A stretch of 47,896 nucleotides of DNA, taken from NCBI GenBank assembly GCA_013042375.1, contig JABDQH010000110.1:1-47896 (forward strand), read 5' to 3'. A model generated the notes under the pieces. The model searched no databases and was not told where the DNA came from. It worked only from the letters and a program-made list of their open reading frames with translations. This document shows, one piece after another, positions 2,789 to 10,953 of this stretch. Made by a program: the position numbers and the translations under genes. The stretch's first letter is position 1, and each line of letters opens with the position of its first letter. The stretch comes from Woeseiaceae bacterium. Lineage in GTDB: Bacteria; Pseudomonadota; Gammaproteobacteria; Steroidobacterales; Woeseiaceae.

Positions 2789-3973
2789 TCACTTAGTATA
2801 GCGCGCGGCGACCTTGCGATACGCCTCGCGAAACGGCAGGCCTTGTTCGCTTACGAGACGGTAGGCCTCGGCCGTGGCGAAGATGCCGTCGTCGAGTTCG
2901 ATGTTCTCGGGCAGGAAGCGCACGCCCTCGAGCAGGTAGGCCATGATGTCGACGCTTTCGACGGCGAGGTCGATCGAGCGGAACACGGGCGGCTTCAGGC
3001 GCTGCAGGTCGCGGTGATAGCCCGACGGTAGTTTCGCCGTAATCAACATGGTCTCGTCGAGGCAAGCCTGGGACGTCGCCGCTGCGGCACGCAGCAGCTC
3101 GAGTACGTCGGGATTGCGTTTCTGCGGCATGATCGACGAGCCCGTCGTCACCTCGGCGGCCAGCGAGATGTACGCGAACTCCTGCGTATAGAAGAGCAAC
3201 AGGTCGCTGGCCATGCGCGACAGGTCGTGCATCATCAGCGCGATCTCGAACAACAGGGCGCTCTCGGCCTTGCCCCGGGACAGCTGCGCCGCGGTGACGG
3301 GTTCCTGGGTAGCGGCGAAGCCGAGCCGCCTGGTCGTAAACTCGCGATCGAGGGGCAGCCCCGGCGTGCCATAGCCGGCCGCGCTGCCGAGCGGGTTCTT
3401 GTTGATGCGCCGCTGCACGGCCTGCATTCCTGTGACGGCGTCGGCGAAGCCCTCATCGAAGCCACCGCACCAGAGCGCGACCGACGACGGCATCGCGTGC
3501 TGCATGTGCGTGTAGCCGGGCAGCTCGACCTCGCCCTGGCGTTCGGCGAGATGGGCGATCGAGACACGCAGGTGCTCGATACGCCCGACAAGGTCGAGGG
3601 CGACGTCGCGCAAATATAGCCGCAGCGCGGTCAGCACCTGGTCGTTGCGCGAACGGCCGAGATGCAGGCGCCCGCCGGCTTCGCCGATGTTCGCGGTCAG
3701 TCGTGACTCGAGCGCGGTGTGCACGTCTTCGTCCTCGAGACTGATCTCCCAGTCTCCTGCCTCGAAGCCGGCCTCGAGCGCTCTCAGGCCGTCGCAAATC
3801 GCATGGCAATCGTCGTGCGAGATCAGGTCCTGGGCGGCCAGCATCTCCGCGTGCGCGATCGACCCGCGCACGTCATGGGGGACGAGGCGCGCGTCGAGCA
3901 GGTGATCCTCGCCCGCCGTATAGCGCAGCACGCGTTCGTCGAGCGGCAGCCCTTTTTCCCACAGCCGGCTCAT
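2789..3973 (-). CDS. argH: Argininosuccinate lyase
   Basis: Last step of arginine synthesis: cleaves argininosuccinate to arginine and fumarate. It belongs to the fumarase/aspartase superfamily. The signature GSSIMPQKRNPD with its catalytic Ser loop is intact, as are LHLGRSRNDQV and the LPGYTHMQHAMPSS segment carrying the catalytic His. At 394 residues it is clearly shorter than the usual 430-470. The missing part is at the C-terminus and in helix-connecting loops, not at catalytic motifs. Its ATG overlaps the argB stop by four bases (ATGA), so translation is probably coupled. It ends the arginine part of the operon. Confidence 0.95.
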   Translation of the reverse strand: MSRLWEKGLPLDERVLRYTAGEDHLLDARLVPHDVRGSIAHAEMLAAQDLISHDDCHAICDGLRALEAGFEAGDWEISLEDEDVHTALESRLTANIGEAGGRLHLGRSRNDQVLTALRLYLRDVALDLVGRIEHLRVSIAHLAERQGEVELPGYTHMQHAMPSSVALWCGGFDEGFADAVTGMQAVQRRINKNPLGSAAGYGTPGLPLDREFTTRRLGFAATQEPVTAAQLSRGKAESALLFEIALMMHDLSRMASDLLLFYTQEFAYISLAAEVTTGSSIMPQKRNPDVLELLRAAAATSQACLDETMLITAKLPSGYHRDLQRLKPPVFRSIDLAVESVDIMAYLLEGVRFLPENIELDDGIFATAEAYRLVSEQGLPFREAYRKVAARYTK

Positions 3974-4899
3974 GAGTCGACCGCCTGTTCTTCGGGCGTC
4001 AGCGCGGCGATGTCGTCGACGACCAGCGTGCCCGTGCCTTCGTTCGTGAACACCTCGAGCAGGATGCTGTCGGGCAGCTTGTGCGAGATGACGTGCACGC
4101 GCGAGACGCCGTCCCTGATCGCGGCATCGATGGCCGCGGCTTTCGGCAGCATGCCGTCGGCGAGTGCACCTTTTTCCTTGAGCGCCCTGAGGTGCTTGCG
4201 GTCGATGTAGCTGATCAGCGACCCCGGGTCGCTAGCGTCTTCGAGAATGCCCGTGGCGCCCGTCACGAGGATCAGTTTCTCGGCGTCGAGCTCGGCCGCG
4301 ATCGCCGCCGCGACCGTGTCGGCGTTGATGTTGAGCAGCGTGCCCGACTCGTCGCAGGACAGCGGGCTGACGACGGGCATCAGGCCGTTGTCGAGCTGCT
4401 TTCGCAGGATGTCGGCGTCGACAGCGTCGATGTCGCCCACGTAGCCGTAGTCGACGGACTCGCCGGCGCTGCTTTCGACGGGCGGTCGTTTGTGAGCGCG
4501 TATGAGCCCGGCGTCGACGCCGCTGATGCCGACGGCCGGAATCTGCAGGTCGCGGCAGGCGGCGAGAATACGCGTGTTGATCTGGCCGTTCAGGATCATC
4601 GCCGCGACATTGAGGGACTCGCTGTCGGTCACGCGCCGACCGTCGACGAACTGCGTGTCGAGCCCGAGGTCGGTGGCGAGCTTCGTGGATTGCGGGCCGC
4701 CGCCGTGGATCAGCACCGTGCGGATGCCGACCTGGTGCAGGATGCCGACCTGCTCGACGAGCGCCGTGGTGAGTTCCGGGTCGGCGAAGACCTCGCCGCC
4801 GGCCTTGATGACGAATACCTTGCCCTTGAACAGGCGGATATACGGCGCCGCGTGTTTCAGCGCCGAGACGACGATCGCGCGCTCTCTTTTTGACGTCAT
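3970..4899 (-). CDS. argB: Acetylglutamate kinase (N-acyl-glutamate kinase)
   Basis: Phosphorylates the gamma-carboxyl of N-acyl-glutamate, the second step of the N-acylated arginine route. The protein is 309 residues from the ATG at 4899, which overlaps the TGA of the upstream carbamoyltransferase gene (ATGA). A longer frame reaching 5088 exists but would run through that gene. Amino acid kinase motifs are VFVIKAGGEVF near the N-terminus, VLIHGGGPQ for the acyl-glutamate/phosphate site, LNINADTVAAAIA and a Lys-containing DGMLPKAAA near the C-terminus. An N-terminal extension of about 25 residues (KRERAIVVSALKHAAPYI) resembles the helix that binds arginine in feedback-inhibited, hexameric kinases, so the enzyme may be allosterically inhibited (inference). 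Confidence 0.95.
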   Translation of the reverse strand: MTSKRERAIVVSALKHAAPYIRLFKGKVFVIKAGGEVFADPELTTALVEQVGILHQVGIRTVLIHGGGPQSTKLATDLGLDTQFVDGRRVTDSESLNVAAMILNGQINTRILAACRDLQIPAVGISGVDAGLIRAHKRPPVESSAGESVDYGYVGDIDAVDADILRKQLDNGLMPVVSPLSCDESGTLLNINADTVAAAIAAELDAEKLILVTGATGILEDASDPGSLISYIDRKHLRALKEKGALADGMLPKAAAIDAAIRDGVSRVHVISHKLPDSILLEVFTNEGTGTLVVDDIAALTPEEQAVDS

Positions 4900-5903
4900 T
4901 GCGAACCACCCAGCATCTGGTGGAGGACGGCCATCTGCGCCAGCATGCGGTTGCGTGCCTCGGGCACAACGATGCTGCGCGGCCCGTCGAGAATTTCGTC
5001 GGCGACGACGACACCTCGGCGCACGGGCAGGCAGTGCATGAAGCGCGCGTCCTCGCGCGCATTGGCGAACCAGGTTTCGTCGACGCACCAGTTGAGGTGT
5101 TGCTCGCGCTGTTTCTGGTCGGCGATGCGGTCGCCGTAGTGTCGGGTCGACGACCAGGACTTGGCGTAAATGACGTGCGCGCCTTCCATGGCTTCCTTGC
5201 GATCGCCGGTTTCGGTCACCGAGCCGCCCGATTCCTCGGCCGCGAAGATGGCCTTCTGCATGATCGGTGCGGGGAGTTCGAAGCCTTCGGGACGCAGCAC
5301 CGTGACATCCATGCCGCGCATTGCCGCCATGTGCAGCGTCGCGGCCGGGACGGCCAGCGGTAACGCCTTGGGATGGTAGGCCCAGCTCAGCACGAACTTG
5401 CCGCCGTTCGCGGGCATGTCGAAGTCGTCGAGCGTCTTCCAGTCGGCCAGGCTCTGGCAGGGATGATTGCAGGCCGACTCCATGTTGATATAGGGCTTGT
5501 CGACGAGTTCGGTCAGCGAGGCGAAGCGCTTCTCGGCGATGTCGTCCTCGATCTTCTTGCGATCGGCGAAGGCGCGAATGCCGATGGCGTCGCCATAGGA
5601 CGCGATGACCGGTACGGCCTCGCGAATATGCTCGGCCGCGACGCCGTCCATGACGATGCCGTCACGCACTTCCAGCCCGTGGATCGACATGTCGGGCGAG
5701 ATGACGAACGAGCCTCCGCCCAGGCGCAGCATTGCCGCCTGGAACGACGCGAGTGTCCTGAGCGACGGGCTCAGAAACAGCAGCGACAGGACCTTGCCCT
5801 TGAGCGCTTCCGGCTCGGGCGTAGTATCGAGGCGTCCGGCGAGCTTGACGAGCGCCTCGATCTCCTCCGTCGAAAAATCCGCGAGATCGTTGAATGCTTT
5901 CAT
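4896..5903 (-). CDS. argF': N-acyl-L-ornithine carbamoyltransferase (AOTC/SOTC family)
   Basis: Transfers a carbamoyl group from carbamoyl phosphate to an N-acylated ornithine. The 335-residue protein resembles the Xanthomonas N-acetylornithine and Bacteroides N-succinylornithine enzymes rather than ordinary ArgF. It has a SPSLRT carbamoyl-phosphate loop (45-50), IVMDGVAAEHIRE (83-95), NHPCQSLADW, FVLSWAYHPKALP and FMHCLPVRRGV. In the Xanthomonas enzyme Glu92 in MDGDTEEH selects acetylornithine, and in the Bacteroides enzyme Pro90 in MDGDKPEH selects succinylornithine. Here the equivalent residue is Ala90 (MDGVAAEH), so the acyl group cannot be read from the sequence. The start ATG lies 73 bases after argD, beyond a perfect palindrome, unlike the overlapping junctions elsewhere in the operon. 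An acyl-citrulline deacylase is needed but is not in the window. Confidence 0.9.
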   Translation of the reverse strand: MKAFNDLADFSTEEIEALVKLAGRLDTTPEPEALKGKVLSLLFLSPSLRTLASFQAAMLRLGGGSFVISPDMSIHGLEVRDGIVMDGVAAEHIREAVPVIASYGDAIGIRAFADRKKIEDDIAEKRFASLTELVDKPYINMESACNHPCQSLADWKTLDDFDMPANGGKFVLSWAYHPKALPLAVPAATLHMAAMRGMDVTVLRPEGFELPAPIMQKAIFAAEESGGSVTETGDRKEAMEGAHVIYAKSWSSTRHYGDRIADQKQREQHLNWCVDETWFANAREDARFMHCLPVRRGVVVADEILDGPRSIVVPEARNRMLAQMAVLHQMLGGSQ

Positions 5904-5976: not shown

Positions 5977-7161
5977 TTAATTGGTTGCCGGTGCGATGCT
6001 GGCGAGTACTTCCGCCAGGCGGGCCACCTGTCCTTCCTGCAGGACCAGCGGCGCGAGGATGCGCAGCACCTCGGGGTCCGCACTCGTCCCGGTCAGTATG
6101 TCGTGTTCGAGCAGCGCGTCGCGCACCTCGGTCGCGGGCCGGTCGCACACGAGGCCGAGCAGCAGGCCCATGCCCTGGATCTTGCTCACGGGGCCGACGA
6201 CGCACTGTTCGCGAATCTGGGCTTCGCGCTCGCGCACGTTGACGAGCAGGTGCTCGGCGAGGATGCCATCGATCGTCGCCGAGATCGCAGCAGCGGCGAT
6301 CGGGCCGCCACCGAAAGTCGTTCCGAGAGCGCCGGCTCCGAAATGGCCGGCAGTCTCCTCGCTGCAGAGAACGGCGCCGCAGGGGATACCGCCGCCGAGT
6401 GCTTTGGCGCTCGTGACGATGTCCGGCACGACATTGAAGGCCTGCACGGCAAAGAAATGCCCGCAACGCCCCATGCCCGACTGCACCTCGTCGGCAATCA
6501 GCAGGGCGCCCGCGGCGGCAGTCGCGGCGCGCAGCGCCTCGGCGAATTCGAGCGACAGGTCGTACGCGCCCGCGACGCCCTGGACGGGCTCGAAGATCAC
6601 GGCTGCGGTCTCGTCGTCGATCATGTCGTGCGCCGCGGCGACGTCGTCGCGCGGAATGAAATCGACCTCGAACGGCTTCTGCGGGAACGTGTACCACGCG
6701 TCCGACTTCCAGGTGACGGCGCCCGCAGCGGCGGTGCGGCCATGAAAGCCATGCGTGATCGCGAGCACTTTCCTGCGCCCGGTGACTTTGAGCGCCATGC
6801 GCAGGGCGTTCTCGTTCGCCTCGGCACCGGAGTTGACGAAGAACACGCGGTCGAGCCCGGCCGGTGCGACGCGGGTCAGTCGTTCCGCGGCATCGGCGCG
6901 GATGTCGAGGGCGACGGCATTGCTCTGGAACAGCAGCTTGCCGCTTTGTTCCTGGATTGCGGCGACGAGGCGCGGGTGCCCGTAGCCGAGCGCCGCAACC
7001 GCATGGCCGCCGTACAGGTCGAGGATGCGCCGCCCGTCGCGCGTGAAGATATCGCAGCCGCTCGCGCGCTCGGGCACGAACGGCAGTTGCCCGTAAACGG
7101 GAATCGTCAGCGCCGCTTCTCGCGTACGCGGGTCGTCTTTCGTTGCCGTGGCATGCGCCAT
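5977..7161 (-). CDS. argD: Acetylornithine (N-acyl-ornithine) aminotransferase
   Basis: PLP-dependent class III aminotransferase converting N-acyl-glutamate semialdehyde to N-acyl-ornithine with glutamate as amino donor. The protein is 394 residues. Visible features are YGGHAVAALGYGHP, the phosphate-binding VNSGAEANENALRMA, ITHGFHGRTAAA, LIADEVQSGMGR with the PLP-ring Asp, and SAKALGGGIPCGA with the Schiff-base Lys. The ATG at 7161 overlaps the argC TGA by one base (TGATG), which decides the start. A longer upstream frame would run into argC. It is the last gene before the palindrome. Confidence 0.95.
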   Translation of the reverse strand: MAHATATKDDPRTREAALTIPVYGQLPFVPERASGCDIFTRDGRRILDLYGGHAVAALGYGHPRLVAAIQEQSGKLLFQSNAVALDIRADAAERLTRVAPAGLDRVFFVNSGAEANENALRMALKVTGRRKVLAITHGFHGRTAAAGAVTWKSDAWYTFPQKPFEVDFIPRDDVAAAHDMIDDETAAVIFEPVQGVAGAYDLSLEFAEALRAATAAAGALLIADEVQSGMGRCGHFFAVQAFNVVPDIVTSAKALGGGIPCGAVLCSEETAGHFGAGALGTTFGGGPIAAAAISATIDGILAEHLLVNVREREAQIREQCVVGPVSKIQGMGLLLGLVCDRPATEVRDALLEHDILTGTSADPEVLRILAPLVLQEGQVARLAEVLASIAPATN

Positions 7162-8222
7162 CAGGTCCACCCCGGTGCGGGCATGTCGAGCCCGGTCGTT
7201 TCCGGCAGTCTCCAGAGCCGGTTCATCCATTGCATCGCGCCGCCGGCCGCGCCCTTGACGAGATTGTCGATGGCGGCCATGACGACGATGCTGTCGCCAT
7301 CGGTCGCGACGCCGATGTGACAATGGTTGCTCGCGACGACGTTCTTGATGCGCGGCGTGCCGTCGACGATATGCACGAACGGCGCACCGGCATAGGCGTC
7401 CTCGTACACCGCGCGCAGTTGCGACGCGGATACGACCGACGTCGACTTCGCCTGCACGGTCACGTGTATGCCGCGCGCGAACGGCCCCGAATGCGGCACG
7501 AAGTGCACGCCGGTCGTCCGGCCGCTCGCGGCCTCGGTCAGTGTCGCCACCTCGGGCGCGTGCCGGTGCGCGAGCGGCTTGTAGGCGTAGAGATTGCTGT
7601 TGCGCTCGGGGTGATGCGTGCCCGCGACGGGCTTCTTGCCCGAGCCCGTGCTGCCCGTGATGCCCGCGATGAATACCTCGGGCCCGGTCAGCCCGCTTGC
7701 GATCAGCGGCACGGTCGCGAGCGTTGACGCCGTCGCGAAACAACCCGGATGACCGACGTGCGGCGTATCGATTTCGTCAGCGTGCTCGGGCAGCGCGCAG
7801 GTGAATTCGCCGAGCAGCCCGGGCGCGCCGTGGGTCGTGCCGTAGATCGACTCCCATGCCGCCTGCTCGGCGAAGCGGAAGTCGGCCGAGGCATCGACGA
7901 CATGCACGTCGACAGACTTCTGCGCGCACGCGGCGAGCGCGTCCGCGAGCATGGCCGCCGACGCGCCGTGCGGCGCCGCCGAGAACAACGCGAGCTCGGA
8001 GCCCGGCTCGATAAGGCCGAGCCAGTCGGCGTGCGCAACGAATTCGTGGTCGGGTAGTGCTGCTGCCAGGTGGCCGAACAGCGCGCCGACGGTCTGGCCC
8101 GCCGCACTGTCGGATACGGCCGCCCTGAGTTCGAAATCGGGATGGACGGCGACCAGGCGCAGCAGTTCGCCGCCCACGTAGCCGCTGGCGCCGAGGATGA
8201 CGGCGGGAATTGCCCTGCTCAT
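7161..8222 (-). CDS. argC: N-acetyl-gamma-glutamyl-phosphate reductase
   Basis: NADPH-dependent reduction of N-acyl-glutamyl phosphate to the semialdehyde. The 353-residue protein starts with a Rossmann motif (VILGASGYVGGELLRL). It has the catalytic cysteine in GHPGCFATA (most ArgC have NPGCYPT), followed by GITGSTGSGKKP and the His-containing AHRHAPEV. The ATG at 8222 overlaps the stop of the unknown P-loop gene by four bases. The central loop with KKPVAGTHHPERNSN is richer in His and Lys than I would expect for textbook ArgC. That may be relevant to the acyl group used here, but it is not diagnostic. Confidence 0.95.
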   Translation of the reverse strand: MSRAIPAVILGASGYVGGELLRLVAVHPDFELRAAVSDSAAGQTVGALFGHLAAALPDHEFVAHADWLGLIEPGSELALFSAAPHGASAAMLADALAACAQKSVDVHVVDASADFRFAEQAAWESIYGTTHGAPGLLGEFTCALPEHADEIDTPHVGHPGCFATASTLATVPLIASGLTGPEVFIAGITGSTGSGKKPVAGTHHPERNSNLYAYKPLAHRHAPEVATLTEAASGRTTGVHFVPHSGPFARGIHVTVQAKSTSVVSASQLRAVYEDAYAGAPFVHIVDGTPRIKNVVASNHCHIGVATDGDSIVVMAAIDNLVKGAAGGAMQWMNRLWRLPETTGLDMPAPGWT

Positions 8223-9274
8223 GCCGTCTCCCCCTGCAGCAGGCTCGCGATCCTGTCGCCGAGTTCGACGGGATTGACGAGGGCATTGATCGCGGGAAGC
8301 CCGGTGCGTTCGTCGATCTGCTGCACTCCGACCTCGTTATCGGTCGCAGGTCCGGTGACGAGGGCCGGCTCGATGTGAAACTCCTTGCGCAACAGCTCGA
8401 CGCCACCCCAGGCCGAGACCGGGTCGTTGGCACACAGCAGGACGACCGTGAGCGCCTTGCGAATCTCCTCGTCGCCCAGGATCGCACCGACACCGTAGGC
8501 GCCCAGCAGGCCGTCGCCGAGCTCGAGGACGATGACGTCGGGTCTCGTTTGCGCTAGCCCCGTGAGCAATGCCCGCGTGAGCTCGCGGCCGTTCTTTTCG
8601 GTCGTCGTGACAATGCCGAAATCCGAGAAGATCATCGACGCGCTGGCGCCGGCATCTTCCATCGCGAGCACGTCGCGCCGCAGGGAAACGCCGGTCGCCT
8701 TGCACGCGGCGACATCCAGCCCCAGGTGACGCAGCCGCCCGACGATGGCGCAGGCGGCGGCCGTCTTGCCCGAGTCCATGCAGGTGCCGGCGAGCGCGAT
8801 GACGGGCACGCCGGCGGTGTCGATCGCGGGCTCGTCCTCGAGCGTGCTGGAGCCGGCGCGCGCCGGAACGCCGATGCGTTCGCCGAGGTAGGGAAAGCTC
8901 AGCACGGTGCCGAGCACCTCGCAGTCGAACGGCGCCCCGACGTCGGGGTTGGCCGAATCGCAGACGCCGAGCACGCCGCCGATGTTCAGGAGTTGAATCG
9001 TATCGCCGGGCTTGAGCGAGGTAGGCAGGTGTCCCGAGTAGCCGCGCAGCGCCTTGCGATGGCCGAGCGCGCCGACAATGATGTCGCCCTGGTTGACCGT
9101 GGCCATGCGGCCCGAAGTCAGCTCGAGCTGGTTGTAGCGCGACTTCGTGTTGAGCACCCTGGCCGCGACGAGCACGCCTTCCTCGCACGGGATGTCTTTC
9201 GACACGCGCAGCTCGGAAGCGAGGTCGTTGTGCTGGGCGACCGATGCAATCTTGTCGACGTTGACGCTCTTCAT
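8219..9274 (-). CDS. P-loop NTPase of unknown function embedded in the arginine operon (DUF1611-like)
   Basis: A 351-residue protein not part of any textbook arginine pathway. The N-terminal part (about 1-150) is Gly- and beta-rich, with LKPGDTIQLLNIGGVLG, and may be a small barrel domain. The C-terminal part (from about 157) begins with a Walker A-like loop GTCMDSGKT (163-171) followed by a helix and CKATGVS. This arrangement is seen in the dethiobiotin synthetase/MobB/CobB class of P-loop enzymes. Further on are SDFGIVTTT and VLELGDGLLGAYGV. Overall layout and length recall DUF1611 proteins, some of which act on D-glutamate, but I cannot confirm membership. It overlaps argG upstream and argC downstream by four bases each, so it is co-translated with arginine genes. 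A role in N-acylation or deacylation is a hypothesis only. Confidence 0.85.
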   Translation of the reverse strand: MKSVNVDKIASVAQHNDLASELRVSKDIPCEEGVLVAARVLNTKSRYNQLELTSGRMATVNQGDIIVGALGHRKALRGYSGHLPTSLKPGDTIQLLNIGGVLGVCDSANPDVGAPFDCEVLGTVLSFPYLGERIGVPARAGSSTLEDEPAIDTAGVPVIALAGTCMDSGKTAAACAIVGRLRHLGLDVAACKATGVSLRRDVLAMEDAGASASMIFSDFGIVTTTEKNGRELTRALLTGLAQTRPDVIVLELGDGLLGAYGVGAILGDEEIRKALTVVLLCANDPVSAWGGVELLRKEFHIEPALVTGPATDNEVGVQQIDERTGLPAINALVNPVELGDRIASLLQGETA

Positions 9275-10476
9275 CCACCCGCCCGTGTCTGTAATGTGCC
9301 CGGCAGCGACAGGATCCTCGCGTAGCCGAGCGCATCCGCCGGCGTCCACTCGCCGGCCGACTCGCCGTACACGCCCCTGGTCGCGGCCAGCAGCGAGTGC
9401 TCCGACTCGACGCCGTCGATGAACAGCCGGCCAGGCCGTAATGTGAATTTGACGGTGCCCGTCACGCGCCGCTGCGATGATACGAGCATGGCTTCGATGT
9501 CGGCGCAGGCAAGGTCGAGCTGTTTGCCCTCGTGAACGAGGTCGCCATAGATCGCGGCGACGCTGTCCTTGATGCGCATCTGCTGCGCACTGAGCACGAG
9601 CTTCTCGAGTTCGCGGTGCGCCGTGATCAGCGTGATCGCCGCCGGCGCTTCGAACGCGACGCGGCCCTTCGTACCGAGCACGGTGTCCCCGAGATGGATG
9701 CCGCGGCCAATGCCGTAGCTGCCTGCGAGCGTCTCGAGCGCCTCGATGAGTTTGACGGGCGGCAGCGACTTGCCGTCGAGTTTCGCGGGAATGCCCTTGC
9801 GGAACTCGAGCGTGTGCTGCGACGCGGCGCGCGGTTCGCTGAACGCGTGCGGCGACAGCACCCAGGCCGCCTCGGGAATCGAGTTCTCTGAGGTCAGCGT
9901 TTCCTGGCCGCCGATCGTGACGCCCCAAAGGCCGCGGTTAATCGAGTAGGCCGAGCCCTGGGCCGGCAGCGGCATGCCTTGCTTCTCGAGGTAGGCCAGC
10001 TGTTCGTCGCGCACCCAGCTGTTGTCGCGCACGGGGGCGAGGACTTCGAGGCCCGGGTTGAGCGTGCGCAGCGCGACTTCGAAGCGCACCTGGTCGTTGC
10101 CGGCCGCGGTGCAGCCGTGCGCCACGGTCGTCGCGCGGCGCGCGCGCGCGATCTCGGCGAGTTTTTCCGCCTGCAGGCCACGCTCGGCGCCGACACACAG
10201 CGGGTAGGCGTTGCCACGCAGGACGTTACCGGCGATCAGGTGGCGGATCACCGTCTCGAAGAACTCCTGTTTCGCATTGATGAGCACGTGCTCGACGGCG
10301 CCAAGCGCCTTCGAGCGTTCCTCGAGCGACTCGGCGGCCGCCTCGTCTATGCCGCCCGTGTCGACGCAGGCCGTGACGACGTCGCGGCTGTAGTTCTCCT
10401 TGAGCCACGGCACGCAGAACGAGGTGTCGAGACCGCCGGAAAAGGCGAGGATGATCGGTGATTTGTCCGTGCTCAC
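9271..10476 (-). CDS. argG: Argininosuccinate synthase
   Basis: ATP-dependent joining of citrulline and aspartate to argininosuccinate. The 401-residue protein carries the PP-loop LAFSGGLDTS at the N-terminus, VAHGCTAAGNDQVRFE, the substrate loop SINRGLWGVTIGG and GIGRGIHLGDTVLGTKGR. The start is a GTG at 10476 preceded by a good AGGAGA site six bases upstream, twelve bases after the argR stop. Its TGA overlaps the start of the P-loop gene. Because the upstream carbamoyltransferase makes an N-acyl-citrulline, a deacylase must act before this enzyme; none is encoded in the window. Confidence 0.96.
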   Translation of the reverse strand: MSTDKSPIILAFSGGLDTSFCVPWLKENYSRDVVTACVDTGGIDEAAAESLEERSKALGAVEHVLINAKQEFFETVIRHLIAGNVLRGNAYPLCVGAERGLQAEKLAEIARARRATTVAHGCTAAGNDQVRFEVALRTLNPGLEVLAPVRDNSWVRDEQLAYLEKQGMPLPAQGSAYSINRGLWGVTIGGQETLTSENSIPEAAWVLSPHAFSEPRAASQHTLEFRKGIPAKLDGKSLPPVKLIEALETLAGSYGIGRGIHLGDTVLGTKGRVAFEAPAAITLITAHRELEKLVLSAQQMRIKDSVAAIYGDLVHEGKQLDLACADIEAMLVSSQRRVTGTVKFTLRPGRLFIDGVESEHSLLAATRGVYGESAGEWTPADALGYARILSLPGTLQTRAGG

Positions 10477-10488
10477 GGTGTTCTCCTG

Positions 10489-10953
10489 TCAGGACCGGGT
10501 CGCATGCTCGATGCGTGTTATCAGGTTCTTCTGTGCATGCGCCGACTCGGTGGCGACGAAGATCGTGTCGTCACCGGCGATCGTGCCGACCATGCCGGGC
10601 CAGCCGCTGCGGTCCATTGCCAGCGCGACGCGCTGCGCCGCACCAATGGCCGTCCGGACGACCAGCAGGTTCGCGCCCGCCGGCGTGACCCCACGCAACA
10701 GGTCGGCGATGGCGGCGACCTGTTCGTCGCCCGCGTCGCCGCTCGTCGGCAACTCGTAACCGTGCGGTGTCTTGATCGCGCCGATCTCCCTGAGATCCCG
10801 GCTGACGCTGGACTGCGTGGCCGCGAGCCCGATCCTGCCGAGCGCGCGCACCAGCGAGGCCTGCGTTTCCGCAGGCCGCTGCAGCAGCAAGTCGCGTATG
10901 GCCGCGCGTCGCTGGACTTGTTCCTCGCTCGTCGGGGGCATCGTAGCCGCCAC
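10489..10953 (-). CDS. argR: Arginine repressor ArgR
   Basis: Hexameric arginine-dependent transcription factor of 154 residues. The N-terminal winged helix has RAAIRDLLLQRPAETQASL and the recognition segment ATQSSVSRDLREIGAIKT. The C-terminal oligomerisation and arginine-binding domain ends with GTIAGDDTIFVAT, where the paired Asp residues contact arginine. The first ATG (10953) is used here, but MPPTSEEQ at 10941 is an equally good start. The gene leads the arginine operon, which implies autoregulation through the palindromes just upstream (10961-11001). Confidence 0.93.
   Translation of the reverse strand: MAATMPPTSEEQVQRRAAIRDLLLQRPAETQASLVRALGRIGLAATQSSVSRDLREIGAIKTPHGYELPTSGDAGDEQVAAIADLLRGVTPAGANLLVVRTAIGAAQRVALAMDRSGWPGMVGTIAGDDTIFVATESAHAQKNLITRIEHATRS

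Follow-up and report, generated by a model that had tools for sequence, protein, structure and literature searches.

The arginine operon of a Woeseiaceae bacterium carries a gene for a P-loop protein, here called X, that is probably a new N-acylglutamate synthase, and probably one that makes the N-succinyl compound; the case is built on gene context, on the elimination of the synthase families searched for and on a distant precedent for the chemistry. In this role, X would most likely be a non-orthologous replacement of ArgA, by a kind of protein not known for the first step of arginine synthesis. An earlier note on this DNA had suggested that X could stand in for a missing enzyme, and the linkage of X to arginine genes, together with the absence of the known synthase families tested, now makes this likely. 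No text linking the X family to arginine was found in the accessible part of the open-licence PMC literature.

The window analysed here is the whole 47,896-nucleotide stretch of contig JABDQH010000110.1. X is a 351-residue open reading frame on the minus strand (8219–9274), whose protein begins MKSVNVDKIASVAQ; the plus strand of the same interval is interrupted by a stop. Its Walker A motif, GTCMDSGKT (residues 163–171; 8762–8788, minus strand), is strongly constrained, with G163, M166, G169, K170 and T171 unchanged across all 40 sequences aligned. The gene is overlapped by four bases at its start by argG (9271–10476) and by another four at its end by argC (7161–8222), which confirms the placement and the coupling first described for this protein. 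The full gene order, all on the minus strand, is argR-argG-X-argC-argD-argF'-argB-argH, followed by polA (recognized by eye), and no argA, argJ or argE occurs in the operon.

Most of the other assignments are supported by family models. The NCBIfam cut-offs were passed by argG (argininosuccinate synthase), argC (N-acylglutamyl-phosphate reductase), argB (N-acylglutamate kinase lacking any GNAT or NAT domain; 3970–4911, start assumed) and argH (argininosuccinate lyase with no GNAT fusion; 2789–3973). The argR repressor (10489–10953) exceeds the cut-offs for both Pfam ArgR domains and scores 108 bits against an NCBIfam cut-off of 130, while argD (N-acylornithine transaminase; 5977–7155, start assumed) falls below the NCBIfam cut-offs and above that of Pfam. 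Through its kinase part, the window's ArgB also reaches 167 bits with the ArgA model NF003641 (cut-off 344), and from its sequence it was perhaps derived from an ArgA-like kinase. ArgH is short (394 residues), and its C-terminal domain match reaches 18.1 bits against a cut-off of 27.3.

The linkage of X to arginine genes is conserved well beyond the window. Of 196 genomes from the gammaproteobacterial order to which the window belongs, 160 gave a match to X or a relative (E ≤ 0.001), and the match was strong in 152. Weak matches (E about 1e-20 to 1e-40) were excluded from the X counts; they occurred in eight genomes of the order (E 8e-26 to 2e-36), where one, in G177, is a genuine X truncated by the end of its contig and the remaining seven have P-loops of the X2 type, six of them having been seen in the X2 cassette described below. 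The 64 X loci examined in the order and in three distant MAGs hold 64 distinct sequences of 48–89% identity, and this diversity, along with the homologues in 160 genomes, places the reading frame far beyond chance. Direct adjacency in the order argG-X-argC was found in 68 of 68 loci (61 from the order, three from the distant MAGs and four from outside the order), and with the window included the gap is at most 30 bases between argG and X in 64 of 69 loci and between X and argC in 65 of 69. Three of the four loci outside the order share the arrangement argD-argF'-argB-argH-argG-X-argC, the fourth contig being too short to tell. A sample of 369 genomes of the class gave any X match in 30 and a strong one in nine (five of the order and four outside it), and a sample of 398 genomes of the phylum gave matches in five, strong in two, namely the window's genome and G809. 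The latter belongs to another class and holds an argR-X-argC-argB cluster without argG, whose products are 46–64% identical to those of the window, which suggests horizontal transfer. Conserved linkage to arginine genes is thereby borne out.

Genome-wide, the window's own assembly (83.9% complete) contains no ArgA over the cut-off, no NAT-type synthase and no ArgJ, so that the suspected lack of an acylating enzyme holds for the families tested. The alternative of argA and argE lying elsewhere with no linkage of X to the pathway is not what was found; linkage is strong and no argA was found, although the genome does encode M20 enzymes outside the operon. Classical ArgA (TIGR01890) was over the cut-off in none of the 196 genomes of the order, and the matches listed all cover the kinase part only. 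ArgJ (PF01960) appeared in one of the 196, in a strong-X genome (G181), where the match is a fragment of 49 residues at the edge of a contig; it may represent either a true second synthase or contamination. Outside the order, ArgA was over the cut-off in none of four X genomes versus 14 of 20 genomes without X proper (13 at full length), the latter having been taken from the head of the list of the class X search plus four with weak relatives; since six of these 20 also had no ArgA over the cut-off, the absence of ArgA does not need X. A GNAT-type synthase comparable to the Bacteroides ArgA2 (BT3761) was looked for among PF00583 proteins. A 98% complete X genome (G005) has a single such protein, RimI, and four others have 5 to 11 matches each, of which the five in G096 were scanned further. 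A GNAT gene beside argH in G029 was considered as a short synthase and set aside, as it occurs at only two of 68 X loci (L054 and L070) and is absent from the window.

A second kind of evidence comes from genomes of the same order in which the first step is filled by a known enzyme. The NAT-type synthase (PF04768), fused to ArgB in Xanthomonas-like operons, was present in 22 of the 196 genomes and in none of the 152 with a strong X; five of the 22 have X2-like weak matches. The Fisher p value for this exclusivity is 3e-17, with the genomes treated as independent despite their kinship. Among the 22 genomes with neither strong X nor NAT, 14 have no ArgB-like match at all, five (G100, G131, G177, G189 and G192) have an arg contig that breaks off where X would lie or earlier, and the rest are G125, G166 and G188. 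The NAT loci viewed (11, some cut by contig ends) have the order argF'-argG-M20-argB/NAT-argC-argH, with ArgF' proteins 32–39% identical to that of the window; at one of them (L102), no M20 match was obtained. The X operon type, in contrast, is without argA and argE and has X in addition. The differences between the two types extend over the whole operon, so that X goes with its operon type and the exclusivity is confounded by shared inheritance. In related genomes that carry argF', the NAT-type enzyme has the role proposed here for X, that of the first step, but it belongs to an unrelated family and works in operons that have an M20 argE-like gene and an acetyl-type ArgF'.

The nature of the acyl group can be approached through ArgF' (4896–5903), the N-acylornithine carbamoyltransferase. 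According to a review (PMC4581275), Glu92, Asn185 and Lys302 mark N-acetyl enzymes, and A/S/P/V/Q, P and V/I/E at the same positions mark N-succinyl enzymes. The window's ArgF' has the succinyl-type residue at each X. campestris position, namely Ala for Glu92 (5634–5636), Pro for Asn185 (5358–5360) and Val for Lys302 (5007–5009; all minus strand), and so falls with the SOTCases under the published rule. In the 58 of 61 X loci of the order whose contigs include argF', the residues are A in 58 of 58, P in 58 of 58, and V in 46 or A in 12, this last alanine being outside the published V/I/E list. All three distant MAGs with X have Q/P/I, and the three of four loci outside the order with argF' on the contig have P, P and V at position 92, P at 185 and E at 302. 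The NAT operons (10 of 11 loci) are of the acetyl type, with E in 10 of 10, N in 10 of 10, and K in nine and Q in one. The succinyl-type residues thus predict succinyl intermediates in X operons, as in Bacteroidetes, and judged by sequence the acyl group of the pathway is probably succinyl, which the earlier note had not anticipated. NCBIfam names the window's ArgF' an N-acetylornithine carbamoyltransferase, over the cut-off, despite these residues, and other ArgF' annotations of the N-acetyl kind may be wrong too.

The closest known parallel is the succinylated pathway of Bacteroidetes, for which PMC7311316 and PMC9026213 describe succinylated arginine intermediates and a GNAT protein as the synthase candidate. 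That pathway (ArgA2/BT3761, SOTCase and BT3549) resembles the X operons in its succinyl-type ArgF' and clustered arg genes, and the order with X is likewise without an ArgA over the cut-off and has ArgJ as one fragment only. It differs in that the synthase candidate is a GNAT protein there and a P-loop protein, X, occupies the operon here, and in that the X operons of the order have no dedicated desuccinylase. Given a first step by a GNAT protein in Bacteroidetes, a succinyl-type ArgF' alone does not imply X.

X itself matched no Pfam or NCBIfam model at its cut-off, hydrolase models included, and the models for ArgA (TIGR01890), NAT-type synthases (PF04768) and ArgJ (PF01960) gave no match even at E ≤ 1 (Pfam) or 0.1 (NCBIfam). 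Searches of the PDB by sequence returned chance-level matches with phmmer and none with a profile. MobB was rejected as the family of X, as PF03205 (18.6 of 26.6 bits) and TIGR00176 (22.6 of 76.2 bits) align with the P-loop region only, and the dethiobiotin synthetase model did not accept X either. Kinship with DUF1611, suggested by the earlier note along with these two families, does not hold as strict membership; PF07755 (at E ≤ 1) and NF041892 do not match X. Compared as a profile with five DUF1611 proteins from the class, X alone reached 3% probability, and X with its paralogue X2 and further relatives reached 82.6% (E 1e-5, 189 columns, 15% identity) over the P-loop domain only, in a comparison that had no unrelated P-loop control. 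With this rise, a distant P-loop domain in common is fairly likely, as the most that these sequences would share, and membership is not. Four of the five DUF1611 proteins were scanned and all match NF041892 (N-acetyltransferase DgcN), one of them over the cut-off; one protein compared with the PDB finds 7xrj, 2obn and 2g0t. DgcN is specific for D-glutamate. Its likeness to X would lie in the C-terminal P-loop domain and in the acyl transfer to glutamate proposed for X, whereas X fails the family models, aligns only C-terminally and resides in arginine operons. DgcN, named an N-acetyltransferase by NCBIfam, would thus be an earlier example of a P-loop protein, possibly a relative of X, that acylates its substrate.

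An AlphaFold model of X (25 sequences; mean pLDDT 80, pTM 0.67) shows an N-terminal part rich in strands and, C-terminally, a P-loop domain. Among the best 50 Foldseek matches to this model, dethiobiotin synthetases and SRP-type GTPases predominate, with query-normalized TM-scores of 0.33–0.40, and the first is the dethiobiotin synthetase 3of5_B (E 3.3e-6). With that enzyme X shares 15% sequence identity, and it has the strand-rich N-terminal part in addition. These matches, together with the invariant Walker A lysine, would suit an ATP-dependent ligase that activates succinate or another acyl donor as an acyl phosphate and passes it to glutamate without CoA, after the manner of dethiobiotin synthetase, its neighbour in structure. 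We regard such a ligase as unlikely, given that a fold does not by itself dictate the reaction, that the TM-scores are modest and that the possibly related DgcN is named an acetyltransferase.

The paralogues of X show that the superfamily reaches into other contexts. X2, encoded elsewhere in the window's genome, has full-length homology to X (99.9%, 27% identity), and X2 proteins come near the DUF1611 cut-off of 25 bits in the P-loop, at 19.7 and 22.8 bits; one X2-like protein, in G203, reaches 28 bits in the P-loop and passes the DUF1611 cut-off. X2 was rejected as the same gene as X, since it belongs to a cassette of its own, where its neighbours are a flavin-reductase gene (PF01613) and an M20 gene. 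This conserved three-gene cassette, of a flavin reductase (PF01613 in L119), an M20 hydrolase that resembles glutamate carboxypeptidases at scores under the cut-offs, and X2, was seen at L118 and L119 in the window's genome (contig C14) and at L120–L124, L126 and L149, and it perhaps serves another N-acyl amino acid route. A further branch, X3 (L144–L148), has P-loops of the GT[SA]MNAGKTTT type in most members, and an ABC transporter gene adjoins it in L145–L147; hence the superfamily is not made up of acyltransferases alone. This variety of contexts, and the P-loop fold, could conceivably mean that X regulates the pathway or helps to assemble it, for instance as an arginine- or nucleotide-sensing NTPase, with N-succinylglutamate made by an unrecognized enzyme such as a moonlighting DapD. 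Such a role seems improbable, as X is missing from those genomes of the order that have a known synthase, is the sole gene without an assigned role inside a conserved operon, and shares that operon with the repressor gene argR.

The removal of the acyl group is a separate matter, and here the M20 enzymes are informative. The window's assembly has nine M20 matches, eight over the cut-off, the best of which is DapE. A search of 12 X genomes with PF01546 gave two matches in each of the single-contig genomes G029 and G070, and 2 to 13 in each of the other ten. In both single-contig genomes, one match is DapE by curated models and the second (40 bits, over the Pfam cut-off) was discarded as an M20 enzyme, these proteins being M28 peptidases with PDZ domains (M28 138 and 143 bits versus M20 38). 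DapE is therefore the only M20 deacylase found in these two genomes, and it is present in seven of seven X genomes checked. In the operons of the three distant MAGs (L042–L044), X occurs alongside an M20 gene of the ArgE/DapE-like kind, so that the step left to X is that of the synthase. That X is instead the missing deacylase is very improbable, for although the L043 M20 protein matched only L042–L044 when compared with X loci L021–L084, so that an argE of this sort is missing from most X operons, and although X2 is encoded beside an M20 hydrolase, these three operons, the constancy of DapE and the lack of any hydrolase model matching X all speak against it. Of the acylating or deacylating function first envisaged for X, only the acylating one is thus retained.

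As a synthase, X would acylate L-glutamate at its amino group, most likely with a succinyl group taken from succinyl-CoA; its P-loop could bind either the phosphates of CoA or ATP, and ATP dependence is possible. ArgB, ArgC, ArgD and ArgF' would process N-succinylated intermediates, N-succinylcitrulline would be desuccinylated by an M20 enzyme encoded elsewhere, possibly DapE of lysine synthesis, and ArgG and ArgH would act after that. An additional succinyl substrate for DapE may be so, as the economical guess. More tentatively, and with rather less confidence than in the synthase itself, X might found a new class of P-loop amino-acid N-acyltransferases, independent of the GNAT, NAT and ArgJ folds, that drives a succinylated arginine pathway across a gammaproteobacterial order and ties it to lysine synthesis, with DapE desuccinylating both N-succinyl-diaminopimelate and N-succinylcitrulline.

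If X is the synthase, the first-step gap in arginine synthesis would be closed for 152 of the 196 sampled genomes of the order, the succinylated route would reach beyond Bacteroidetes, and an unnamed protein family would gain a function. Two likely misreadings would also be corrected. The first is that of argF' as an N-acetyl gene; the second concerns dgcN, which PMC12363236 describes as common in Woeseiales of the Mariana Trench. PF07755 has no match in the window's own genome at E ≤ 0.001, and hence the dgcN of that report may partly be X or X2.
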